Source of the DNA: Gammaproteobacteria bacterium
Lineage (GTDB): Bacteria > Pseudomonadota > Gammaproteobacteria > JAADGQ01
Direction of reading: 5' to 3'
Length of the DNA stretch: 43,731 nucleotides
Assembly (NCBI GenBank): GCA_021648145.1
Contig: JAKITI010000020.1
Location: 1 to 43,731, forward strand
In this document: one piece after another, positions 11,377 to 43,731 of the stretch
Layout: each line of letters begins with the position of its first letter
Position numbering within the stretch: the first letter of the stretch is position 1
Program-made: the position numbers and the translations under genes
Notes under the pieces: generated by a model
What the model saw: the letters and a program-made list of their open reading frames with translations, nothing else
Told to the model about the DNA's origin: nothing
Databases searched by the model: none

Positions 11377-11422
11377 TTTAGTCATGCAATATTCGGCGTG
11401 GTGCTTTTTTTGTGACAAAAAA

Positions 11423-11451
11423 TTGCTATTTTCTCAGCACCTTTCTACAAT
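11423..11451 (+). promoter_or_regulatory. sigma70-type promoter of the ilvBHC operon
   Basis: TTGCTA at 11423-11428 and TACAAT at 11446-11451 are 17 nt apart, 43 nt before the GTG start of ilvB. The leader after it is too short for a branched-chain amino acid attenuator peptide, so classical ilv attenuation is not supported here. Confidence 0.6.
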
Positions 11452-11493
11452 TGCGCGTTTGTTTGTTGATAGTTCTATTTGAGGAGTGTTGTC

Positions 11494-13188
11494 GTGGAGT
11501 TGAGCGGCGCTGAAATATTTATTCGTTGTTTAAAGGAAGAGAAGGTTGAGTATCTTTTTGGTTATCCAGGAGGAGCTGTATTAAACCTTTATGATGCACT
11601 TGATCAGCAGAATGATGTAAAGCATATATTGGTAAGGCACGAGCAAGCAGCAACACATGCTGCGGATGGGTATGCGCGCGCGACAGGCAGGCCTGGAGTC
11701 GTACTGGTAACTTCTGGGCCAGGTGCGACTAATGCCGTGACGGGTATAGCAACGGCTTATATGGATTCGATTCCTATGGTTGTTTTTACAGGGCAGGTTT
11801 TTACAAGCTTGATCGGTAATGATGCATTTCAGGAAGTGGATTCGATAGGAATTACACGCCCGTGTGTTAAACATAACTTTATGGTTAAAGACGTTAAAGA
11901 CCTTGCGGAAATTATCAAAAAGGCATTTTATATTGCGACGACAGGGCGACCGGGGCCCGTGGTAATTGATATTCCAAAAGATATTACCGCCGATAAAGCA
12001 CTTTTTGACTACCCTGAAAGCGTCAGTATTCGTTCTTATAATCCTGTATTAAAGGGACATGGCAGGCAAATAAAACGTGCCGTGGAAATGATATTGAATG
12101 CACGCCGTCCGATTGTTTATAGTGGCGGCGGTGTTGTTCTTGATGGCGCATCATCTGAACTGACTGAATTTGTTCAAATGCTCAATTTTCCTATCACAAG
12201 TACTTTGATGGGGCTTGGGGCGTACCCAGCCACGGATAAGCAGTTCTTAGGTATGCTGGGAATGCATGGTACTTATGAAGCCAATATGACTATGCATGAA
12301 TGCGATGTATTGATCGCAATTGGTGCACGTTTTGATGATCGTGTGACTGGTAAAATTGAAAAGTTTTGCCCGACAGCAAAAATTATTCATATCGATATCG
12401 ACCCTGCATCCATTTCAAAAAATGTCAAAGTAGATGTGCCTATTGTAGGGGCGGTTAGTAATGTATTAAAAGAGATGTTCAAGCTGCTAAGAGCGACTGA
12501 ACGAAATCCTGATGAGCAAGCATTGAATGACTGGTGGGGCAAAATTAAGGCATGGCGTAAAATTGAATGCTTGAAGTTTGATACCAATGGCGAAAAAATC
12601 AAACCTCAAGCTGTGGTTCAAACACTCTATGATGTGACTCAAGGCAATGCTTATGTGACGACTGATGTGGGTCAGCACCAGATGTGGGCGGCACAGTTTT
12701 ACAAATTTGATAAACCACACAGGTGGATTACTTCTGGTGGGCTTGGCACGATGGGTTTTGGTCTGCCCGCCGCGATGGGTGTGCAACTTGCGCACCCTGA
12801 TGCAACGGTTGCTGTTGTGACGGGCGAAGGCAGTATCCAGATGTGTATTCAAGAGCTTTCAACCTGCTTGCAATACGGTTTACCCATTAAAATTGTGAAC
12901 TTGAATAATGGTGTGTTGGGAATGGTACGCCAATGGCAGGAGTTTTTTTATGGAAAGCGCTATGCTATGTCCTATATGGAGTCATTGCCTGATTTTGTTA
13001 AATTAGCTGAAAGTTATGGTCACGTCGGGATTCGTATTGATAAACCTGAGGATGTGAGACCTGCAATGGAAGAAGCGATGAAGCTGAAAGGTCGTTTGGT
13101 CTTTTTGGATTACTATACTGATCCGGCTGAAAACGTTTATCCGATGATTCCTGCTGGTGCGGGATTAAATGAAATGTTGTTGGTGTAA
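11494..13188 (+). CDS. ilvB: acetolactate synthase large subunit
   Basis: Catalytic subunit of acetohydroxyacid synthase, the first common step of valine, leucine and isoleucine synthesis; it needs thiamine diphosphate, Mg and FAD. Signatures: GYPGGAVLNLYDAL, the ThDP glutamate region LVRHEQAATHAADGYARA, and the late GEGSIQMCIQEL...NLNNGVLGMVRQWQ cofactor segment. The GDG start of the ThDP motif is GEG here, a conservative change. The open frame begins at TTG 11479, but GAGGAG at 11481-11486 points to GTG 11494, giving 564 residues. It resembles the IlvI class; ilvH follows directly. Confidence 0.95.
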   Translation: MELSGAEIFIRCLKEEKVEYLFGYPGGAVLNLYDALDQQNDVKHILVRHEQAATHAADGYARATGRPGVVLVTSGPGATNAVTGIATAYMDSIPMVVFTGQVFTSLIGNDAFQEVDSIGITRPCVKHNFMVKDVKDLAEIIKKAFYIATTGRPGPVVIDIPKDITADKALFDYPESVSIRSYNPVLKGHGRQIKRAVEMILNARRPIVYSGGGVVLDGASSELTEFVQMLNFPITSTLMGLGAYPATDKQFLGMLGMHGTYEANMTMHECDVLIAIGARFDDRVTGKIEKFCPTAKIIHIDIDPASISKNVKVDVPIVGAVSNVLKEMFKLLRATERNPDEQALNDWWGKIKAWRKIECLKFDTNGEKIKPQAVVQTLYDVTQGNAYVTTDVGQHQMWAAQFYKFDKPHRWITSGGLGTMGFGLPAAMGVQLAHPDATVAVVTGEGSIQMCIQELSTCLQYGLPIKIVNLNNGVLGMVRQWQEFFYGKRYAMSYMESLPDFVKLAESYGHVGIRIDKPEDVRPAMEEAMKLKGRLVFLDYYTDPAENVYPMIPAGAGLNEMLLV

Positions 13189-30441: not shown

Positions 30442-32214
30442 ATGGAGTTAACTTCTTTGGAACAGAACATATTGGAGCTTGTTCTCAATTATTACCGCTC
30501 TCCTTCACACTACCCTGAGCTGGTTGATGTGGATGCGCCATTGCCTTCAGGAATCGAATTCTTGCTAGAACTGGTTGCAGGTAATATAGATCTTGAGACG
30601 GATCAATTGCAAGGTGATTTGAAAGGAACTCCTGTTAATGACCTGAAAGCAGCCTCTGGGTTTTATATCGAACGCGTTTTTTTTAATTCAAATGCGAATT
30701 TTTATCGCATACTTGGATTAAATACGGATTCAACACAAGGCCAGATTCGCCAGCATTACGATCTGTTGATTCATATTCTTTGCCTGGATCAAGAAGATAA
30801 AGCCGCTCAATGGGATGACGCATATGCAATGCAAATTAATCGGGCATATAGTGTATTGCGGATCCCTGAAAAGCGAAAAAAATATAATGAACGTCACGGC
30901 ATTGTCGTAAGCGAGTTTTCTGGAGTTGAAAAACGGAGTGAATCACGCAAGGCTCTTGATAGAGATTCAGAAGAAAACCCAGCGAGTGCAAAGAGTAGTC
31001 TAGGCACCTCTTTTGTCGCAGAAAATATTGATCTTGCTTACCTATCTAAAGAGAATGAGCTGGTTGTTGTAGAGGAAAAAATCACAGATGAAGTCCCTGT
31101 TGAGAATATAGTACCTGCTGTTGACAGGTTGGCTGCGACCAAAAAAATTGACAGCGCCAGTCCTGAAAATTTGTATGAGCCCTATGGGGATGAAACGGTC
31201 ATTAATGAAGACCCGGTCACTACCAATACAGAATCGCTTATTTTTGCTGAACAAACTGAAGCTCCAAAAACTGAAAGTGCTTTATCACAAATAGGGAAAT
31301 ATTCACTGTTTGGCGCTCTGCTTCTGGTTACAATGGGGGGCGCTGTCATCTATTTTTCAGGAAGCTTTAAACATGAAACAGATGCTTCTTACGAGACGGA
31401 TGCAATAATTTTGCCTGAAACAGAAGAGACTCAGGAGCCTGAAAAAGTAGTTGGATCACCTGAAAATAGCGCTGTTAAGGATATTGTTGATGACGATAAA
31501 GAGGGCATCCTTGATTCAGGTAAAGTGGAAAAAGTAGAACCTGAAAAAACGCCACCGAAAGTGACAGAAAAAGAAAAAATAAAAGAAAAAACCAAGGTTA
31601 ATGTCGTAGTGACTGAGCCGGCTGAAACATCCCGGGAGAAAGTGATACATTCAGAAAATATTATGAAATTACCACTTGTAAATTCAGAACCTATGACCAA
31701 AAAAGAGGTTTTTAATGAACCTAAGCTCAAGCCTGAACCCAGACCTGAGCCTGTTGTAACGACTATAGTGACTGAAGCTAAAACAGATAAAAGTGACTCG
31801 AAACCTGAGGAAGGTGTGATATATGATCCAGACACTATTAAAAAGACTAATGCAGAAAAAATCTCAGCGGTCATCCGAGATTTTGTTCATTATTATAATG
31901 TAGGTGATTTAGGTCAATTTATTGCTCTGTTTGCAAAAGATGCCAAAACAGATGATCGTGACAGCATCAGTGGAATTCGGGACGATTATGCCGATGCTTT
32001 TAACTTAACAGTCAAGCGTAAATTTTTGATTGATGATGTTCAATGGGTTATGTTAGACGAAAACAGTGGCTCAGGATCAGCAAATTTTGTTTTGTTTGTT
32101 CAGGCACTTGGGGAGAGTCGATTTACAGAATATACGGGTGAGATTACTTTTAACATGGAGATTCGTGATAACGTTCCACTCATCACGGGGTTATATTACC
32201 AATACAATGAATAA
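30442..32214 (+). CDS. membrane protein with J-like domain lacking HPD and NTF2-like C-terminus
   Basis: A 590-residue protein heading the exopolysaccharide locus. Residues about 85-150 look like a J domain (NFYRILGLNTDSTQGQIRQHY, then INRAYSVLRIPEKRKKYNE), but the HPD tripeptide needed to stimulate DnaK is replaced (HIL at 111-113). After an acidic linker comes one membrane helix (288-307), then a Pro/Glu/Lys-rich periplasmic stretch (about 320-460) and a C-terminal domain from about 467 (ISAVIRDFVHYYNVGDLGQFIALFA) resembling NTF2/SnoaL folds. The N-terminus would be cytoplasmic. A role coupling cytoplasm and periplasm in polysaccharide assembly is inference. GAGGTGGA precedes the ATG. Confidence 0.75.
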   Translation: MELTSLEQNILELVLNYYRSPSHYPELVDVDAPLPSGIEFLLELVAGNIDLETDQLQGDLKGTPVNDLKAASGFYIERVFFNSNANFYRILGLNTDSTQGQIRQHYDLLIHILCLDQEDKAAQWDDAYAMQINRAYSVLRIPEKRKKYNERHGIVVSEFSGVEKRSESRKALDRDSEENPASAKSSLGTSFVAENIDLAYLSKENELVVVEEKITDEVPVENIVPAVDRLAATKKIDSASPENLYEPYGDETVINEDPVTTNTESLIFAEQTEAPKTESALSQIGKYSLFGALLLVTMGGAVIYFSGSFKHETDASYETDAIILPETEETQEPEKVVGSPENSAVKDIVDDDKEGILDSGKVEKVEPEKTPPKVTEKEKIKEKTKVNVVVTEPAETSREKVIHSENIMKLPLVNSEPMTKKEVFNEPKLKPEPRPEPVVTTIVTEAKTDKSDSKPEEGVIYDPDTIKKTNAEKISAVIRDFVHYYNVGDLGQFIALFAKDAKTDDRDSISGIRDDYADAFNLTVKRKFLIDDVQWVMLDENSGSGSANFVLFVQALGESRFTEYTGEITFNMEIRDNVPLITGLYYQYNE

Positions 32215-32273
32215 AGACATTGGAAAGTGTCTAAAAAAATTATTATTTAGAAGGCTTGTTTAGAGGAAGCATA

Positions 32274-32966
32274 ATGAAAAATATTAACGGGCTATGGCGC
32301 AAGAAGTTTTTACTGATAGTGGTGCCTTTTGTATTTTCGGCTCAGGTTCATGCAAATAACGTAGGTGTACTTGATGAAATTCAAGGCACAGTGATGGTTG
32401 ATCGAGGGGAAGGGTATTCGATTGCTCATCGTGGCGAAGCTTTGCAAGCGGGGGATCGAATTGTCACTATGGATGCTTCTGGTGCTGTGCTCAAACACAG
32501 TGATGGATGCGTGGCTCGGTTAGCAGAAAACTCAATGGTTAAGATGGAGCAAGTGAGCGTTTGTAAAAACAATAATGGCTCTTTGAAAAAAAGTGGGCCT
32601 TTTGTTGCTGCTGCTATTGGTGTCAGACCTCCACCCACGACAGCAACAGACTATTTGGAAGAGCCTATTTTTGAAGCGGCTGAAGAGATGGCGGTTGAAG
32701 GGTCAATTCTGGATGAAGATACTAAAGATACAGACTTTGAAGATCCTGCTTTTGATAATGAAGAGACTTTGGAAACCGCTCTTGAAGAGCCTGTCGATGT
32801 GATGACAAATATTGAAGAGATTGAAGTGGTGGAAGAAGAGATTTCGCCCTATAAAGGTGCGGGAATACTTTCCAGTGTTTCAAAGGGCAGTATTATTGCG
32901 ATTGGTGCAGGAGCCGCCGCCCTTTTAGCCGCCGTGGCTGGCGGAAGCAGCGCTTCTGATCATTAA
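32274..32966 (+). CDS. FecR-domain-like exported protein
   Basis: A 230-residue exported protein. A signal sequence (MKNINGLWRKKFLLIVVPFVFSAQVHA) is followed by a FecR-like beta domain (VGVLDEIQGTVMVDRGEGY, then AHRGEALQAGDRIVTMDASGAVL), an acidic low-complexity linker and a C-terminal hydrophobic Gly/Ala helix (IIAIGAGAAALLAAVAGG). This layout occurs in proteins of surface or polysaccharide loci. The frame is open from TTG 32256, but AGAGGAAG before ATG 32274 and the signal sequence fix the start. It follows the J-like gene by 59 nt; a hairpin separates it from yjbH. Confidence 0.8.
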   Translation: MKNINGLWRKKFLLIVVPFVFSAQVHANNVGVLDEIQGTVMVDRGEGYSIAHRGEALQAGDRIVTMDASGAVLKHSDGCVARLAENSMVKMEQVSVCKNNNGSLKKSGPFVAAAIGVRPPPTTATDYLEEPIFEAAEEMAVEGSILDEDTKDTDFEDPAFDNEETLETALEEPVDVMTNIEEIEVVEEEISPYKGAGILSSVSKGSIIAIGAGAAALLAAVAGGSSASDH

Positions 32967-35222: not shown

Positions 35223-37946
35223 ATGATGAGAAATAATTACCTGAAATTACTGGCTTTATTATGGCTGTCTGTAAGTGTTGCTTTATCAAGCACTATTGCC
35301 TTTGCAGAGGTGACACAAGGGCAAATACAAAGCTTTATGAAAATGCCTCAATCACAGCAAAAAGCTATGATAGAAACCATTAAAAAGCGTAATGGCAATC
35401 GTGATATGAGTCGAATCTCCGGGAGCGAAGAGGTGTTTTCCCAGAGCTCAGGCTTGAGCACAGAGTCGGATTTAGATCCAGATTCGAAATTGCAGCCTGA
35501 AGTCAAGGTAAATAAAGAGATAAAGCCCCCTTCTGATTTAGATCCACTCGCCAGTGGAGATACCATCTTATTACGTATGACTTCAAACGATGGTGAAGAC
35601 TCACGTATTCCAGAAAGCATGATCTATACACTTGATCGAACTGGCTCAATTATACTGCCATCACTGGGCCCAATTGTAATTTCTGGTCTGACCATTAAGC
35701 AGGCCGAAGAGCTTATTTCGATTGAACCCGCACTTCAGGGATTAAATATCTCTATAAAAAGAATGCCCATAAATGGAGGGCTCGCTCCTTTTGGTTATGA
35801 TGTTTTTCTTGATTCCGGTCAATCATTTAACTCTATTACAGCACTGCCAACCCCTGAAAATTATGTCGTCGGCCCAGGTGACACTGTGATTATTCAACTG
35901 TTTGGAAAAGATAATGCAGAGTATGAACTGGATGTTAGAAGAAATGGATCACTACTATTCCCAGGAATTGGACCGATTCAAGTGGCGGGTCTCGATTTTT
36001 TTTCGCTGAAGAGTGAAATTAAGACTCGTGTAAAAAGACAATTTATTGGAACAAAAGTCTCGGTAACACTGGGTCGTTTACGTTCAATACGCATCTTTGT
36101 TCTGGGCGAAGTAATACAAGCAGGTTCATACACCGTAAGCGGCCTTTCAACACTCACAAATGCTCTATTTACAAGCGGTGGCGTGAAAAATATTGGTTCA
36201 CTCAGAAATATACAGTTAAAAAGAAATGGTAAAGTCATTTCAAATTTTGATCTGTATGATTTGCTTCTGCATGGTAATACCCAGTCGGACAAACGGTTGC
36301 TTCCTGGTGATGTCATTTTTGTTCCACCGATCGGTAAAACGGTCGGAATATCAGGTGAGATTTTACGACCTGCGATCTATGAGCTAAAGAATGAAAAGAA
36401 TATTAATGATTTAGTGAAAATGGCAGGAGGCTTTTCTCCAGAAGCATTACTCGACAATATTCAAATTAAAAGAATTAAAAAAAGTGGTGGACGTTCACTG
36501 CAAACAGTTGATTTAAAAAACGCTGGAAATGGTTTGGTGAGTCTGGTTGATGGCGATATAGTCACGGTTCTTTCGCAGCCAGATAAGCTAGAAAAATTTG
36601 TCAGACTATTGGGTTATGTTGAGTCACCAGGAGACTATTCATGGTTTGAAGGAATGCGTATTCGTGATTTGCTTCCTTCACTTAATATGTTACTTCCTGG
36701 TGCAGATAAGCATTACCTTGTGATCAAACGTCAATTTCAGGATAAAAGAGGCGTTAAATTATTAGATGTCGATCTTATGAAGGTTTTAAGCGCCGACTCT
36801 AATGAAGAAAATATTCTCTTGAACTCTAAAGATGAAGTTTATATTTTTGACTCTCGTAATGATCGAAAAACAGTGCTAGAACCTTGGCTTAATTTAATCA
36901 GCAGCCAAGCAAGCCCAGAGCAACCACTTAAAATTGTCAACATAAAAGGCTTGCTGCATCATCCCGATCGCTACCCTTTGACTGAAAACATGAAAGTCAG
37001 TGACCTGTTACGTGCCGCTGGTGGCTTAACTGATAATGCATACACATTACGAGCAGAGTTGACATCTTATGTCGTATCGGATGGTGAGCGCCGTGAACTC
37101 TTACGGAGAGATATTAATCTTGATCATGTATTGGCCGGTGACCAATCATTTGACGTTCAATTAAAACCCTATGATGAGTTGCTGGTGCGACGAATTCCCA
37201 GTTGGGACGAAGAGGGGCATATAGAACTTTTGGGCGAAGTTGAATTTCCTGGTGTTTACTCAATTGGTCGAGGTGAACGTTTGAGTGATGTCATAAAACG
37301 TGCAGGAGGATTAACAGATATGGGTTATGCAAAAGGTGCCATATTTGTACGAGAGTCCGTCCGTGAAAGAGAGAGACAACATCTAGAGCGCATGGCGATG
37401 CAACTGGAGCGTGATCTGGCCGTCGTTCAAGCTCATGGTGATGAAATTGGTATGGATAAAGGGAGAGCCATCATTGAAGGGAGAGTGCTGCTGGAGCAAA
37501 TGCGATCAGTCGAAGCAATGGGTCGCATGGTGATAAATTTACCGACTATATTAGGTGAAACGGGCTCATATGATGTGGCGCTTCAAAGTGGTGACCAGCT
37601 ATATGTTCCAAAAAGGCCTGATGAAGTGACTGTGGTGGGGGAGGTTTACCACCTGACATCTCATATTTATGAGCAAGGTATAAAGCGTGATGAATATGTA
37701 AGGCTCAGTGGGGGCATTACTGAAAGAGGTAATAAAAAATCGGTGTATGTTGTTCATGCCAATGGTTCTGTGAGTCCACCGGAAAGGTGGTATCAAAAAT
37801 CTGTAGAAATAGGGCCAGGAGATACTATTATAGTGCCGGTTAAAATTGACCGGATTAGCAAACTTAAATTGTTTACTGATGTGAGCCAGATTATTTATCA
37901 GTTAGCTGTTTCAGCAGCGAGTTTGAAGGTATTTAATCTTCTTTAG
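35223..37946 (+). CDS. large polysaccharide export protein with multiple SLBB domains
   Basis: A 907-residue exported protein; a signal sequence ends near IAFAEV. Two poly-export domains follow: GDTILLRMTSNDGEDSR with TLDRTGSIILPSLGP, and ENYVVGPGDTVIIQLFGK with VRRNGSLLFPGIGP. After these come several SLBB-type segments (IRIFVLGEVIQAGSYTVSG, VGISGEILRPAIYELKN, FVRLLGYVESPGDY, HIELLGEVEFPGVYSIG, TVVGEVYHLT). Wza, with about 380 residues, has one poly-export and two or three SLBB domains, so this is an expanded relative. It should form the periplasmic/outer-membrane conduit for polysaccharide. No lipobox is seen. ATG 35223 is followed by a second ATG at 35226. It starts 25 nt after yjbH and precedes the wzz-type gene by 15 nt. 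Confidence 0.88.
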   Translation: MMRNNYLKLLALLWLSVSVALSSTIAFAEVTQGQIQSFMKMPQSQQKAMIETIKKRNGNRDMSRISGSEEVFSQSSGLSTESDLDPDSKLQPEVKVNKEIKPPSDLDPLASGDTILLRMTSNDGEDSRIPESMIYTLDRTGSIILPSLGPIVISGLTIKQAEELISIEPALQGLNISIKRMPINGGLAPFGYDVFLDSGQSFNSITALPTPENYVVGPGDTVIIQLFGKDNAEYELDVRRNGSLLFPGIGPIQVAGLDFFSLKSEIKTRVKRQFIGTKVSVTLGRLRSIRIFVLGEVIQAGSYTVSGLSTLTNALFTSGGVKNIGSLRNIQLKRNGKVISNFDLYDLLLHGNTQSDKRLLPGDVIFVPPIGKTVGISGEILRPAIYELKNEKNINDLVKMAGGFSPEALLDNIQIKRIKKSGGRSLQTVDLKNAGNGLVSLVDGDIVTVLSQPDKLEKFVRLLGYVESPGDYSWFEGMRIRDLLPSLNMLLPGADKHYLVIKRQFQDKRGVKLLDVDLMKVLSADSNEENILLNSKDEVYIFDSRNDRKTVLEPWLNLISSQASPEQPLKIVNIKGLLHHPDRYPLTENMKVSDLLRAAGGLTDNAYTLRAELTSYVVSDGERRELLRRDINLDHVLAGDQSFDVQLKPYDELLVRRIPSWDEEGHIELLGEVEFPGVYSIGRGERLSDVIKRAGGLTDMGYAKGAIFVRESVRERERQHLERMAMQLERDLAVVQAHGDEIGMDKGRAIIEGRVLLEQMRSVEAMGRMVINLPTILGETGSYDVALQSGDQLYVPKRPDEVTVVGEVYHLTSHIYEQGIKRDEYVRLSGGITERGNKKSVYVVHANGSVSPPERWYQKSVEIGPGDTIIVPVKIDRISKLKLFTDVSQIIYQLAVSAASLKVFNLL

Positions 37947-37961
37947 GGGCTAACTTTCTAA

Positions 37962-38918
37962 ATGGATAATATGATGAATAATGAAGAAAAACAAAACTCC
38001 TCTAAAGGAACACAACAAGCTGTGCCGCCTTATGCTTATTATCCACAAACCATTAGCGTAGAGGAAGATAAAATCAATCTGGTGGACTATTGGTGGATTT
38101 TGATGGAACGTAAAAAGTTAATTGTCCTTATTACACTACTTTTTACCATCACATCAATTGTAGTCGCATTATTAATGACACCTATCTACAGAGCAGAAGT
38201 ACTCCTTGCTCCTATGGGAGGGGAGGGGAGTGGCGGAGCTGCCAGTGCTCTTGGACAGTTTGGAGGTTTGGCATCCATGGTGGGGATTGATCTTGGCAGT
38301 AACAGTACAGAGCACACCCTTGCAGTATTGACATCCAGACGTTTTCTGGAGGTTTTTTTAAAAGAAGAAAAGATATTGCCTATTCTGTTTTCCGATATAT
38401 GGGATGATTCTTCCGGTCAGTGGATTCTTGAAGAAGGTAAGGAGCCGCCTTCAATGTGGAGCGCCTATAAAGTCTTTAGTAAATCAATTTTGATGAACTC
38501 TATTAATAAGGATAGTGGTTTGGTGACTATCTCTATTGACTGGAAAGATCCTGAGTTGGCAGCAGAGTGGGCTAACAACCTGATTGTTCGTCTCAATAAA
38601 AAGTTGCGCACTCTTGCTGTAACTGAAGCAGAAAGTAGCATCAACTATTTACAAGAGCAACTTCAGCAAACTTCTGTGGTTGATATGCATCAAGTGCTTT
38701 ACCGACTGATTGAGTCAGAAACACAAAAAATCATGTTAGCCAAAGTAAGTGAGCAGTATGCTTTAAAGGTGATTGATCCTGCGGTAATGCCTGAAGAAAA
38801 GATCAAACCAAAACGTGCTGTAATTGTTATTCTTGGATTTTTATCAGGCTTTATGTTTTCAGTATTTTTAGCTTTTTTATTAACATTTATTGTTAAGCAG
38901 CGTAAGGCTGCACAATAG
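37962..38918 (+). CDS. Wzz-type chain-length determinant (polysaccharide co-polymerase)
   Basis: A 318-residue inner membrane protein with a cytoplasmic N-terminus (about 50 residues), helix one at 53-73 (IVLITLLFTITSIVVALL) followed by TPIYRAEVLLAP, a periplasmic coiled part, and helix two near 284-308 preceded by the Pro-rich VIDPAVMPEEKIKPKR, typical of Wzz. There is no C-terminal tyrosine kinase domain, and no separate kinase is seen in the window. It sets polymer length and partners with the SLBB exporter. No wzy polymerase is evident up to the window end. Confidence 0.9.
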   Translation: MDNMMNNEEKQNSSKGTQQAVPPYAYYPQTISVEEDKINLVDYWWILMERKKLIVLITLLFTITSIVVALLMTPIYRAEVLLAPMGGEGSGGAASALGQFGGLASMVGIDLGSNSTEHTLAVLTSRRFLEVFLKEEKILPILFSDIWDDSSGQWILEEGKEPPSMWSAYKVFSKSILMNSINKDSGLVTISIDWKDPELAAEWANNLIVRLNKKLRTLAVTEAESSINYLQEQLQQTSVVDMHQVLYRLIESETQKIMLAKVSEQYALKVIDPAVMPEEKIKPKRAVIVILGFLSGFMFSVFLAFLLTFIVKQRKAAQ

Positions 38919-38934
38919 TATTTTAACCTGAATA

Positions 38935-39666
38935 ATGTTTAATAATTTATTAGTTGAGGGTGATTTAACTCTGGATGTTGAGTTTGGCAACTCATATAAT
39001 TTTTTTTCTGCATCAAAAAATAACTCCCCACAAGATTATGATTACAATGAAAAACTCTCTATAAACGCGATGATACCGGCTGCAAAATTTGAAATTACAG
39101 ACTCAGTTGCGTTTAAAGGGGCACAAGGAACAAGAGATTTGTCATTTTTGGCATTAGAAAAAAATTATCTTTTTGATGCCGTTTCCAGGTTTGTAGTGTA
39201 TTCACGAAATAACAGGCCTGCTTATATTGATAATCAAAAAATAGGGCACAATAACTCAAATTTCTATTATCAGTATCATCATGCCAAACCACAGGTTCCC
39301 ATTGGCGATGATGGGTGGATCACTTTTGAAGATAACTTTTCTAATCTACCTGCTGGATTCGACAACGTATTTTACATTCGGGATGAGGCAAACACTGAAA
39401 AAGGTTATCGCTGGATTATTCATCATCGGTGCATAGCAAAAATAGAGTCAGCTAATTTAATCGTAAGAGGGTGCCACCCCAGATTCAATAAACCATTCAA
39501 ATTTCAATCACTATGGCCTAAATGGCTAAAAAGAAAATTATACCGAGTAAGAGAACGTGATTATCCTTTTTTTCCAATTCAATCTGTAGGAGAGGTGTGT
39601 ATTCCTGGAAATACAAAAATCTCTTTAAGAACAAAGATTCAAGTGATCAATGAAAGATCGAATTGA
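38935..39666 (+). CDS. unrecognised protein 1 of the polysaccharide-locus triplet
   Basis: A 243-residue protein without signal or membrane segments. It is rich in aromatic and beta-type segments (FLALEKNYLFDAVSRFVVYS, WITFEDNFSNLPAGFDNVFY, GYRWIIHHRCIAKIESANLIV) and ends with a basic stretch (WPKWLKRKLYRVRERD). A beta-sandwich is likely, reminiscent of the sheet domains of heparinase-type lyases, but I cannot assign it. There is no clear binding site before the ATG. Its end overlaps the next gene by 17 nt, suggesting coupled translation. Confidence 0.65.
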   Translation: MFNNLLVEGDLTLDVEFGNSYNFFSASKNNSPQDYDYNEKLSINAMIPAAKFEITDSVAFKGAQGTRDLSFLALEKNYLFDAVSRFVVYSRNNRPAYIDNQKIGHNNSNFYYQYHHAKPQVPIGDDGWITFEDNFSNLPAGFDNVFYIRDEANTEKGYRWIIHHRCIAKIESANLIVRGCHPRFNKPFKFQSLWPKWLKRKLYRVRERDYPFFPIQSVGEVCIPGNTKISLRTKIQVINERSN

Positions 39667-40552
39667 GTCTTACACTGAATCTGGAGAAAAACTTTTAGTG
39701 CATCTTGATGCTAAATTAAATGCCGAGTCAGGTTTTCCCGATGAGCCAAGCTGGGGCTATGCATTTATAATGCTGGCAGTTCTTCAATACAATCCCAACT
39801 TTCCTGAAAACAGGCTGGCTCAACGTGCACTCAGATTTTTATCAAATCAAAATAGCTCAACAATCAACTTTCCTTGGGAATTTATTGTTTACGCAGTTCA
39901 AAATTCTTGTTCATTAATTAGCAATAAAAAAATAGATTTACCCTTTAATAAATATAATAAAAAGGGCACACGCATGTTGAATTGGTACCTACTCAGGCAG
40001 CTCAATAAAAGCTATTTTCGTCGGTTAAATATTGTTGAAATTTTTCAACTAAGAATGGCAAAACTTTTTTATACAACAAAAGAAGGATTGATACTTGATG
40101 AGCAGCGAACAAGGTCACTGCAATACCATGCTTTTTGTCTGTTTGTTCTAGCTGAGTTGATGGATCGTTATCCAGAACATGAATTTATTCAAGAATGGTT
40201 CTGCAATGGCATAAAATACAGCCTGTCTACTATTCTTGATGATGGTACGGCTTTGTATATAGGGCGTGGTCAGGAGCAAATATTTGGTTATGGAGCCTTG
40301 ATCTATTCTTTAGAAAAATATAATAAAAACATCCAAAAAATTGACCCTTATATTCTTAATGCACTTCAAAAGCGTGTATTGGGATTTCAGAGAGACGATG
40401 GCAGCTTCCCACTGGTTTTACGTAAACGTCAGCCAGAGCAGGGAGAGGTTTCTTTCAAGAAAGATAAGCCTTTAGGGTGGTATGGATACAATACTTTATA
40501 TGACTACCAACCATTCTTGGCATACTGCCTTCTTAAAGCTGGAAGGCTATGA
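39650..40552 (+). CDS. predicted alpha/alpha-toroid protein 2 of the triplet
   Basis: A 300-residue, mostly helical, cytoplasmic protein. Repeated helix pairs (WGYAFIMLAVLQYNP, ALRFLSNQ, LQYHAFCLFVLAELMDRYP, IFGYGALIYSLEKY) and motifs such as ILDDGTALYIGRGQEQ and FQRDDGSFPLV recall alpha/alpha-toroid glycosidase, lyase or epimerase folds, including DUF2264-like proteins. No catalytic set can be proved. It overlaps gene 1 by 17 nt and gene 3 by 4 nt. The absence of a signal places any reaction in the cytoplasm, possibly on lipid-linked oligosaccharide. Confidence 0.65.
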   Translation: MKDRIESYTESGEKLLVHLDAKLNAESGFPDEPSWGYAFIMLAVLQYNPNFPENRLAQRALRFLSNQNSSTINFPWEFIVYAVQNSCSLISNKKIDLPFNKYNKKGTRMLNWYLLRQLNKSYFRRLNIVEIFQLRMAKLFYTTKEGLILDEQRTRSLQYHAFCLFVLAELMDRYPEHEFIQEWFCNGIKYSLSTILDDGTALYIGRGQEQIFGYGALIYSLEKYNKNIQKIDPYILNALQKRVLGFQRDDGSFPLVLRKRQPEQGEVSFKKDKPLGWYGYNTLYDYQPFLAYCLLKAGRL

Positions 40553-41226
40553 ATATTTTTCAGCATAAATTGGATGGAGGGGCGAGCGTTATCTGGGCAG
40601 TTCCTTTGTCTGGATATGGGCATATTGCGGATGAGCAGCCGCTGCCTTACATACATTACCAAGGAAAAGAGCTGACCCCGCGCTTTGGGGGGGAAGATGG
40701 TCAGGAAGGTTGTGGATTACATACCATAGGCCTTCCTTGGGGTATTCTAAAAAACAGATGGCCTTTAAGCCAGAAAATTTTTAATATTTTCAGAAAAAAT
40801 ATAAATATTTACTGGCGCAATATTTTTGTAAGCCGATGTAGGGCGGATAAAAATTTCTATTTTCTTGAGCAATTAGATTATATAGCCTCACCACAAGGCT
40901 TCATGGGTGAGAGCCCTTTGATTCGCTTTGAAAGAAAATTTCTTATTGAAGGTGCCTCAGTACAAGTTGAGGATACGATAGTTTTTAAAAAAACTGTTTT
41001 ATTTGAGGTTTTTTATCCTGTCAATATACCTTTACTTGATAACTCTCCTATTAAGCTTATCTCTAAAGAGTTTTTGATAAGGAGGGGTAAGCAACGCTCA
41101 TCGGCAGGAGAAGCAGTGATGCATGTTCTTGAAAAAAACAGTATAGAGTTTAAAGAAGGAGATACCTATATGTATCAGTATAAATATTACATAAATAAAG
41201 GTAATACTAAAGCTCATATGGAGTGA
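40549..41226 (+). CDS. unrecognised beta-rich protein 3 of the triplet
   Basis: A 225-residue protein with beta-rich character (ASVIWAVPLSGYGHI, FGGEDGQEGCGLHTIGLPWG, PLIRFERKFLIEGASVQVEDTIVF). The pattern resembles the beta-sandwich that follows the helical toroid in polysaccharide lyases of the heparinase type, but this is only architectural resemblance. It starts within the stop of gene 2 (ATGA) after GGAAGG. No signal or membrane helix. A 58-nt gap leads to the FkbM gene. Confidence 0.65.
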   Translation: MNIFQHKLDGGASVIWAVPLSGYGHIADEQPLPYIHYQGKELTPRFGGEDGQEGCGLHTIGLPWGILKNRWPLSQKIFNIFRKNINIYWRNIFVSRCRADKNFYFLEQLDYIASPQGFMGESPLIRFERKFLIEGASVQVEDTIVFKKTVLFEVFYPVNIPLLDNSPIKLISKEFLIRRGKQRSSAGEAVMHVLEKNSIEFKEGDTYMYQYKYYINKGNTKAHME

Positions 41227-41284
41227 CATAAGTAGTAAAAATTTTCTTGTGCTTCAAGAACTATAGTTAATAGGAGATATGGAT

Positions 41285-42097
41285 ATGATTGAAGAAAGTC
41301 CTAAAATAATCGAATTTTCGAAAAAAATTTATTTATTGCTACCACGCGGCATAAGAGAGTCACCAAAATTTTCACATTACTCTAGTGTACTTTTTTCAAA
41401 GTTAACACCTAATAAATATGCATATGTGAATGTTTTTGGATCTTTTATTTATCTTAACTTGAAACACCCAGGAGATATACAACGTATTTGGGGGGTGTGG
41501 GAGCCAGATTTAAGACGTTTTTTACAAAGAGAACTGAAGTCAGGAGAAATATTTATTGATGTCGGTGCTCATCGAGGGACATATACAACCTTAGCAAGAA
41601 AGTTAGTGGGAGAATCGGGGCGTATCATTGCTTTTGAGCCATTTCCTGAACACTATCAATCCTTAGTTAAAAGTGTTGAGAGGAATAAGTTTTGTAATGT
41701 GGAATGTATTAAGGGAGCAGCTAGTTCTGAAAAAGGTATTTCACGTTTAACAAGTTCATCACCTCATTTAGATAAGGTCGGTGATTTAGAGATTGAGAAA
41801 TATTCCATTGATGATGTAGTTGATAATGCAGATATTATTAAAATTGATACAGATGGATCAGAATATGAGGTTGTTTTAGGTGCGGAAAGATTAATTGACA
41901 GTGGCTGCCAAGTAGTTATTGAGTTTAGTGATTTTCAATATCAATCGGTAGGTGATGTTTACACAAAGATTAATAATTTTTTCAAACATAAGGGTTACAG
42001 TGCACACATAATTCAATACGATGGCAGCTCTTTAGAGATAGAGCCTGATAATTTAACGTATGTTAACAGGCATGTTGTATTTAAGAAAAAAGCATAA
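41285..42097 (+). CDS. FkbM family methyltransferase
   Basis: A 270-residue SAM-dependent O-methyltransferase of the FkbM family, probably methylating a sugar of the polymer. The SAM-binding FIDVGAHRGTYTTLARKLV, IIAFEPFPEHY and DIIKIDTDGSEYEVVLGAERL are clear. The frame begins at ATG 41279, but AGGAG at 41272-41276 is only two bases from it, so ATG 41285 with eight-base spacing is chosen. The acceptor is unknown. Confidence 0.88.
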   Translation: MIEESPKIIEFSKKIYLLLPRGIRESPKFSHYSSVLFSKLTPNKYAYVNVFGSFIYLNLKHPGDIQRIWGVWEPDLRRFLQRELKSGEIFIDVGAHRGTYTTLARKLVGESGRIIAFEPFPEHYQSLVKSVERNKFCNVECIKGAASSEKGISRLTSSSPHLDKVGDLEIEKYSIDDVVDNADIIKIDTDGSEYEVVLGAERLIDSGCQVVIEFSDFQYQSVGDVYTKINNFFKHKGYSAHIIQYDGSSLEIEPDNLTYVNRHVVFKKKA

Positions 42098-42129
42098 TTA
42101 TGGACTATATAATTGAGCTTATTTGAAAA

Positions 42130-43410
42130 ATGAATGAAGTTAAACAACGTTTTTTTTCTGCTTTTAAGTTTGGTGCAGTTGAGCAGTTAATAGCCAGAGG
42201 ATTTGACTTTCTTACGTTAATTATTGTAATGCGGGTTCTGCCAACAGACCAGATAGCACTTTTTGGTATATCCACAGGAATGTTGATATTTTTCAATGTG
42301 TTTGCAATAACTCCAGAAACAGTTGTAATTCGTGATTATGTTAAGTGGCAAAAAAATGGTAATGCAAAGTATTGCTTAGAGTCGTTTCAGTGCTTTTGGC
42401 TTCTAAAGACCTTCTTGATTGGTTCAGTTGGGCTTGTAATTAGCTTTATTGTTGAAAATGGAGAGCTAGGGCCTATTTTCTTTGCTTCATTGTATTTTTT
42501 TATTATTCAGTTTACTCAGTTGTCAGAGATATCAAGAATTGTACTACGTGTTCGTTTAGAGCAGCGCAGAATCTTTATAATAGAGGTTGCATTAAAGTTT
42601 TTATTATTTTTATTAGTTTTGCTCATAATACTGAACCCTACGCTCTTGATATATTATTCTATATTTGCTATTTGGGCGATTTTGTCAGCGTGGATTTGGT
42701 TGTTTGAATTGAAAAAACTAACTAGAGCTTTTTTTAGGTGGGATAATTCATACGTAAAATTTTGGTTGAAAACAATAAAAAACTTCTCATTATGGCAGCA
42801 TTTTGGAGCAGTAACAGCATATTTTATATACAATATAGACCCATGGATTCTTTCTTTATTTTCAGTTGAATCCCAAGAGATAGCGGAATATACATTAGCC
42901 CTTAAAGTTTCATCACTATTTTTTTTGATTCCTCTTTATATCCAGTCCATGACATCTATTTTATTAACAAATCTGGAGTGGAAACCGGGGTGGATTGCAG
43001 AGCTATCAAAGATATGGAAACTTAATTTTATTTTGTCTTTCATGCAACTGGGTATTTTTTGGATGCTGGGTAAATATATTCTCATGATATTTTCTAATGG
43101 TGATTTGGATATAGAGAAGGCATATTTAGTTGGATTATATATTAGCTTAGGGGTATTTTTTGTGAATATCATGCGCCCTCTAATTGGGTACCTGATGGTT
43201 TCGTCACCAATGCGCGATGTTTTCTTTAAAGTTTATTTTCCTACTTTTTTGTGTGCAATTGTAATTTATCCATATTTAACAAGTATTTTAGGCCCTATTG
43301 GTTGTGCAGTGGCCAGTATGGTTGTTTATGTTATTTTTTCAATTGCTATTATGAAATACATCAGAAATTCAGATCTTACTCTAAGGTCTCTCATTTATGG
43401 AAAACATTAG
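42130..43410 (+). CDS. Wzx-type oligosaccharide flippase
   Basis: A 426-residue polytopic membrane protein of the polysaccharide transport (PST/MOP) superfamily, with about twelve hydrophobic helices. The opening FKFGAVEQLIARGFDFLTLIIVMRVLP matches Wzx proteins. It would flip undecaprenyl-linked repeat units to the periplasm, supporting a Wzx/Wzy pathway together with the Wzz protein upstream. Sequence is strongly AT-rich, as is common for polysaccharide loci. The ATG follows TTTGAAAA, a weak binding site. Confidence 0.88.
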   Translation: MNEVKQRFFSAFKFGAVEQLIARGFDFLTLIIVMRVLPTDQIALFGISTGMLIFFNVFAITPETVVIRDYVKWQKNGNAKYCLESFQCFWLLKTFLIGSVGLVISFIVENGELGPIFFASLYFFIIQFTQLSEISRIVLRVRLEQRRIFIIEVALKFLLFLLVLLIILNPTLLIYYSIFAIWAILSAWIWLFELKKLTRAFFRWDNSYVKFWLKTIKNFSLWQHFGAVTAYFIYNIDPWILSLFSVESQEIAEYTLALKVSSLFFLIPLYIQSMTSILLTNLEWKPGWIAELSKIWKLNFILSFMQLGIFWMLGKYILMIFSNGDLDIEKAYLVGLYISLGVFFVNIMRPLIGYLMVSSPMRDVFFKVYFPTFLCAIVIYPYLTSILGPIGCAVASMVVYVIFSIAIMKYIRNSDLTLRSLIYGKH

Positions 43411-43451: not shown

Positions 43452-43731
43452 ATGATTAGTGTAGTCATTCCGACATATAAAAGATCTGACTTGCTGGCTA
43501 GATTATTAGATTCAATTATCTTGCAAACAGTAGCACCTGAAGAGTTGGTTGTGGTTGATGATGCTTCTCCTAATCCTGAAGAATATACTTTGGTAATTAA
43601 CGAATATAAAAATAAAATAAAGAACCTGAAATATATCCGCTATGAGAAAAATAGAGGCGCACCTCATGCTAGAAATGTCGGGATTCAAGAAACAAAAAAT
43701 GATTGGATCGCACTGGTTGATGACGATGATG
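43452..43731 (+). CDS. family 2 glycosyltransferase, N-terminal part, cut by window end
   Basis: The first 93 codons of a GT-A-fold family 2 glycosyltransferase: MISVVIPTYKRSDLLARLLDS, then EELVVVDDASPNPEE, RYEKNRGAPHARNVGI and WIALVDDDD, which includes the acidic metal-binding region at the window edge. It would add a sugar to the lipid-linked repeat unit. It begins 41 nt after the flippase gene. Length and specificity cannot be seen. Confidence 0.88.
   Translation, partial: MISVVIPTYKRSDLLARLLDSIILQTVAPEELVVVDDASPNPEEYTLVINEYKNKIKNLKYIRYEKNRGAPHARNVGIQETKNDWIALVDDDD

Follow-up and report, generated by a model that had tools for sequence, protein, structure and literature searches.

Heparinase II/III-like proteins (PF16889 with PF07940) have a helical N-terminal part and, after it, a second domain, and one of them, VV0358, is described as required for the capsule of V. 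vulnificus (PMC6037467). DSepi1 is presented as a C5-epimerase composed of a toroid and a beta-sandwich, with Tyr/His catalytic residues and with uronate within the glycan as its substrate, and Agl32 of Halobacterium salinarum as an all-helical C5-epimerase acting on a tetrasaccharide; the same source gives at least five or six sugars as the requirement of DSepi1 and GlcE, and describes the N-acylglucosamine 2-epimerase (AGE) enzymes as monomeric and single-domain (PMC13308652). Here we analyse three overlapping genes, named A, B and C, on contig JAKITI010000020.1 of a gammaproteobacterial assembly (GCA_021648145.1), which in its full length of 43,731 nucleotides is referred to as the window. 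It was found that they form a conserved module of exopolysaccharide (EPS) loci, and we propose, tentatively, that their products are a cytosolic enzyme modifying a uronate of the lipid-linked repeat unit.

The module would resemble the heparinase II/III-like proteins in placing a second domain after a predicted helical N-terminal part, but it differs from them in being split over two or three genes, in having an additional partner (A) and in lacking a Pfam match. A toroid or helical domain combined with a beta-sandwich, as in DSepi1 and GlcE, is also the arrangement proposed for the module, although it has no Pfam match to such families, and DSepi1 and GlcE are, unlike the module, each one type of polypeptide. 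The likeness to Agl32, a single-domain and archaeal protein in contrast to the module, lies in the AGE enzymes found among the VIA matches of B. By eye, B shares with DUF2264 (PF10022) the collinear pattern NW .. [DE]G x12 Y .. DG x5 GR x5 F .. DG .. YN, and the hhalign comparison of 29 DUF2264 sequences with the full B set falls in the NW-to-GR part of this register; the DUF2264 hits, however, are single frames of 581-705 amino acids (one of 971), and the score lies within the shuffled controls.

A conserved module in two classes

All three genes are on the forward strand. Gene A (38935-39666) encodes 243 amino acids of a family without name, unmatched in Pfam and NCBIfam and lacking a credible counterpart in the PDB; gene B (39650-40552) encodes 300 amino acids, all-helical in a low-confidence model and probably an alpha/alpha-toroid; gene C (40549-41226) encodes 225 amino acids, the counterpart of the C-terminal part of a fused protein, BC, which occurs in another class. 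A and B overlap by 17 nt, B and C by 4 nt, and the coordinates, the successive frames and the overlaps are exactly those reported in a first-pass annotation of the window. Purifying selection was evident on A, B and C in comparison with the sister genome (record WFXF01000049.1, 'Gammaproteobacteria bacterium isolate S141_38'), the non-synonymous and synonymous divergences (dN/dS) being 0.155/1.07, 0.065/0.66 and 0.239/1.23, respectively.

The module was detected in 37 genomes: 3 of gammaproteobacterial type and, in the other class, 29 of family f241 and 5 of genus g432. The A, B and C parts are adjacent in all 37 genomes that have B or BC, and to this extent the homologues are kept together; the genome searches used profiles of B and BC only, and A or C standing alone elsewhere lay outside the search. 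In the samples of the window's class the module is present in 3 of 369 genomes (B alone or a 29-row B/BC profile); of 16 genomes matched by B, 13 gave only partial matches at E 0.02-0.09 and were set aside as chance. A three-row B profile detected relatives in the other class, with matches in 5 of 398 genomes across the phylum, G000 among them. The module is rare in a broad sample of that other class (2 of 385 genomes); it is present in 29 of 29 genomes of the one-genus family f241 and in 5 of 36 genomes of family f243, these being all 5 genomes of genus g432. The order of genome G105, the B of which is 53% identical, has it in one of two genomes. No relative was found among plasmids searched with B, BC and A, or among viral contigs searched with B and A.

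The gammaproteobacterial proteins and those of the other class are only 17-25% identical, yet A and B are dense in invariant polar residues. Among 33 aligned homologues the invariant positions of A are E16, F23, D81, V83, R85, H105, Y111, F142, Y147, R149, D150, W160, H163, R165, R178 and E207, and those of B include N111, W112, D150, Q158, Y159, H160, G205, R206, G207, Q210, W277, Y280, N281, D285 and Y286. Since profiles built from gammaproteobacterial sequences only match the other-class proteins in 26 of 26 loci, both for A (E 4e-13 to 0.005) and for B (E 3e-19 to 2e-8), the homology of A and B across the classes does not depend on a joint alignment. For C the link is weaker: gammaproteobacterial C matched the other class directly at no better than E 0.004 (0.047 against f241 alone), and hhalign linked it through g432, with E 1.9e-5 between gammaproteobacterial and g432 C and 7.9e-10 between g432 and f241 C. 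It is well supported that A-B-C is a real, conserved module, and A and BC are two protein families without annotated relative in the libraries searched (Pfam, NCBIfam, PDB); no description of the module was among the papers listed in a literature search.

All 34 loci of the other class carry B and C as a single open frame with the B part first, and in each of them A is a separate gene on the same strand directly upstream of BC. The fused protein extends in these loci from profile position 10 or lower to at least 486 of 501, and A and BC overlap by 16 nt in 25 f241 loci if the listed start codon is used, next to the 17 nt of A/B in the window. Because BC is fused and A adjacent in 34 of 34 loci, B and C forming one unit with A as its constant partner is supported, and the fusion matches what is expected from a split toroid plus beta enzyme. 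By hydropathy, which was the sole measure of export signals, 29 A proteins, 29 B/BC proteins and 3 separate C proteins showed no clear transmembrane segment or signal peptide (the maxima were a 19-residue mean of 1.61 and, within the first 40 residues of one BC protein, a 12-residue mean of 1.79), in line with the lack of export signals reported in the first-pass annotation.

Predicted fold of B

The model of B, built from two sequences (the proteins of the window and of the sister locus L003), is all-helical with 13 helices of at least 4 residues, at low confidence (predicted local distance difference test, pLDDT, 48.7; predicted template modelling score, pTM, 0.50). Foldseek, given this model, placed entries of two polysaccharide lyases, Smlt1473 and PanPL, in its first six rows (best E 0.069, probability 0.96). 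The VIA rows (Z 6.9-9.1) included glycoside hydrolase family GH76 (8.5-9.1), mannose isomerase (Z 8.4, root-mean-square deviation 5.3), N-acylglucosamine 2-epimerase (Z 7.7, deviation 5.9) and GH88/105, all of which we take to be toroids; for helical models, according to VIA's own caveat, a Z below about 13 may reflect merely a common arrangement. DSepi1, GlcE and heparinase II/III structures were absent from the VIA matches listed for B. Chou-Fasman propensities failed on control domains and were dropped.

The suggestion of the first-pass annotation that one product is a toroid is consistent with the all-helical B and with the toroid enzymes among its top matches, although none of these matches is significant and the model is of low confidence. 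A toroid fold of B is plausible, and the model supports it weakly.

Neighbouring genes

Upstream of A the forward strand of the window carries genes for a YjbH exopolysaccharide protein (PF06082; 33053-35197), a Wza-type export protein with Poly_export and SLBB domains (35223-37946) and a Wzz/GNVR chain-length protein (37962-38918), all recognised by Pfam, which agree with the capsule-type locus of the first-pass annotation in that the locus is of capsule or EPS type. The Wzz/GNVR protein or a homologue stands directly upstream of A in all three gammaproteobacterial loci. Downstream, on the same strand, there follow an FkbM-type methyltransferase (41279-42097, Pfam), a polytopic membrane protein of about 11 transmembrane segments by hydropathy and without Pfam match (42130-43410), called flippase-like here solely for its position and hydropathy, and the beginning of a family GT2 glycosyltransferase (43455-43730), which is cut by the contig end and was named after the Pfam match of its G105 homologue. 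The sister genome and G105 share the order Wzz-A-B-C-flippase-like-GT2-GT4, and no FkbM homologue was found in the compared stretches of either. Just before the EPS export genes, window positions 30442-32966 encode two proteins, one with a DnaJ domain and one that matches the LapA retention module below cut-off; genes that look similar by eye precede the EPS export genes of the sister genome too.

Compared with the sister locus, the window shows 74-87% identity in the genes from YjbH through B and 81% over the initial two thirds of C; the remaining third of C is 40% identical and the flippase-like gene 36%, before the GT2 returns to 86% (over 93 amino acids). The segment of low identity corresponds to about 41000-43410 of the window and 11400-12845 of sister locus L003, with the FkbM methyltransferase in the window only. 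Judging from these identities, the segment from the 3' end of C to the flippase-like gene was probably exchanged, or diverged fast, between the two.

In the other class, where gene names come from scanning one locus per group against Pfam and from tblastn for the rest, all 29 f241 loci have the order WecG-GT4-GT4-polytopic protein-A-BC-GT2-GT4-dehydrogenase with the dehydrogenase on the opposite strand, and in all 5 g432 loci A-BC is divergent from a flippase-like gene, and a methyltransferase and a GT2 follow A-BC. The g432 flippase matches PF01943 and the f241 polytopic protein has no Pfam match. No homology was detectable among the flippase-like proteins of the three lineages, so that conservation extends to the module but not to these neighbours. 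The f241 cassettes are bordered, in 29 of 29 loci, by a gene for a nucleotide-sugar dehydrogenase, the one scanned being closest to TviB, below cut-off, and the G105 stretch contains a Ugd-like gene, cut by its end and likewise below cut-off.

Two further observations concern other loci. The G105 locus (L020 2965-9327 and 14562-15578) has NeuC- and NeuB-type genes above cut-off and, below it, another NeuB-like gene along with a nucleotidyltransferase-like one, which suggests that the G105 polymer may contain a nonulosonic acid. In another locus (L059 1-3144, forward strand) a single open reading frame encodes a GT4 glycosyltransferase fused to the N and C domains of heparinase II/III, which hints that proteins of the heparinase type may be able to work in the cytosol beside glycosyltransferases.

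A possible reaction and its alternatives

With a probability that we put at roughly one in three (0.35), A, B and C would be parts of one soluble cytosolic enzyme of EPS loci, whose target would be a uronate in the lipid-linked repeat unit prior to its flipping. B would be the alpha/alpha-toroid with the catalytic cleft, C would form a C-terminal domain packed against B, and A would be a constant but separate partner lining or closing the cleft. The sugar acted on would be a uronic or perhaps an aminouronic acid within the undecaprenyl-linked unit, from which residues such as Tyr159/His160 of B may abstract the C5 proton while Asn111/Arg206 may neutralise the carboxylate. The product would be a C5-epimerised sugar; a beta-eliminated one is less probable, since a biosynthetic locus would have little use for a destructive lyase in the cytosol. 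We infer this reaction from the pattern of residues and loci. An enzyme of the lipid-linked unit fits because the polar residues are invariant, no export signal was seen by hydropathy and the neighbour is flippase-like. The catalytic cleft of heparinase II/III contains an Asn/Tyr/His/Arg set, and B has the invariant N111, Y159, H160 and R206, which its low-confidence model (pLDDT 49) does not place reliably in space.

Several results weigh against this proposal. A, B and C have no Pfam or NCBIfam match above cut-off, nor have their homologues (10 homologues, 29 B/BC and 29 A proteins), and weak Pfam hits of single homologues (best E 0.017) were dismissed; PDB sequence searches with the module proteins gave no rows or a few at E 0.76 or higher, taken as chance. 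At the Pfam gathering score neither PF16889 nor PF07940 matched A, B, C or any protein of the same three sets, DUF2264 matched none of A, B, C, the 10 homologues and the 29 B/BC members, and PF06662 (C5-epim_C) was absent from the Pfam matches of any member scanned. Profile-profile comparison was made with reference profiles of PF16889 (9 sequences) and PF10022 (29 of 30 loci with a usable open reading frame). Against heparinase II/III the best hhalign E value of B was 0.03, in an alignment that pairs its QYHAF with the Y-H motif of the family, and the other runs gave 0.07-0.43, none of them significant. The C profiles of f241 (0.051) and g432 (0.09) aligned to a single stretch within the C-terminal domain of heparinase and that of gammaproteobacterial C (0.46) elsewhere, values which mean little because the A profile also aligns to this domain, at 0.068. 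Nor was B versus DUF2264 significant: 29 sequences gave E 0.08-0.29, some in the wrong register, subsets 0.08-0.19, a two-sequence profile 0.025 in another register and other runs up to 0.32, and the E of 0.28 over 134 columns is within the decoys (five column shuffles 0.14-0.5, reversed 0.49). The likeness to lyases or uronyl epimerases seen in the first-pass annotation thus found no significant family match in these comparisons.

To these are added the structural results: the model of B is poor and that of C useless (pLDDT 29), none of the 112 Foldseek rows for B reaches 0.001, and the second VIA row is the transaldolase AprG (Z 9.0), with ribosome-biogenesis and histone-chaperone chains at Z 7.6. 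A is fused to B or C in none of the 34 loci, which leaves the fusion looked for since the first-pass annotation confined to B with C, and mirror-tree comparison gave no special A-BC coupling (0.45 in one run; 0.48, rank 11 of 21, in another). The dehydrogenase is weak evidence for a uronic acid, because nucleotide-sugar dehydrogenases are so common, being present in 13 of 14 control genomes as well as in 5 of 5 module genomes checked, and no uronate gene was found in the window's or g432's own stretches. For the polysaccharide-modifying complex of the first-pass annotation, the co-conserved unit, the BC fusion, the EPS loci and the lack of export signals by hydropathy speak in favour; kinship with a lyase or epimerase family, beta-rich folds of A and C and an interface of the three proteins are conjectural.

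The lyases at the head of the Foldseek list of the weak B model would also suit a cytosolic quality-control enzyme, a lyase or glycosidase by which faulty lipid-linked units or stray polymer are trimmed or recycled, and bacteria with related capsules can, according to the authors of PMC6037467, degrade polymer released into the periplasm by lyases. Such a role is periplasmic, however, as it is for AlgL by its structure title, whereas the module has no export signal by hydropathy and no lyase family match, and we consider this reading rather unlikely. It is improbable, too, that the module is a toroid enzyme of AGE or glycoside hydrolase type with non-uronate chemistry (a sugar 2-epimerase, an isomerase, or a hydrolase or transferase on the repeat unit): the GH76, mannose isomerase and AGE rows of VIA point in this direction, but their Z values are in the range of a merely common helical arrangement, and the AGE enzymes, monomeric and single-domain as described in PMC13308652, would leave the constant A and C unexplained.

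The place of the module beside a polytopic flippase-like gene (one gene away in the window) would also be expected of a non-catalytic assembly or adaptor factor of a flippase/polymerase complex. In the 29 f241 loci (L076-L095, L100-L103, L105-L109) the partial distance correlation of BC with the flippase-like protein was the highest of 21 gene pairs (0.74; 0.68) and exceeded that of either with A, though A sits between them. This is not statistically firm, since the difference from BC-A was zero or below in 29 of 300 bootstraps and that from BC-GT4 in about 85 of 300; moreover, A and B keep invariant polar residues, which suggests catalysis, although no homology is detectable between the flippase-like proteins of the three lineages, and an adaptor has a low probability in our estimate. 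A genuine conserved module with other chemistry, for example acetal, acyl or lactone formation, would accord with two protein families without annotated relative; nothing specific speaks against it, and we hold it to be similarly unlikely.

If the cytosolic uronate enzyme is preferred, the module could, in a further step that is doubtful but conceivable, represent a new class, a multi-subunit cytosolic uronate epimerase or eliminase on the undecaprenyl-linked unit, with separated toroid and beta-sandwich domains and a second, catalytically essential subunit A without known counterpart. It should be stressed that a fixed unit of two protein families unmatched in Pfam, NCBIfam and PDB occurs in the EPS loci of two classes. 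If it modifies the lipid-linked unit, sugar editing at that step would become predictable from the genes, and the naturally split and fused pair would be a test case for the assembly of toroid plus beta-domain enzymes. It could also help to explain why the heparinase-like VV0358 is needed to make the capsule and not to break it.
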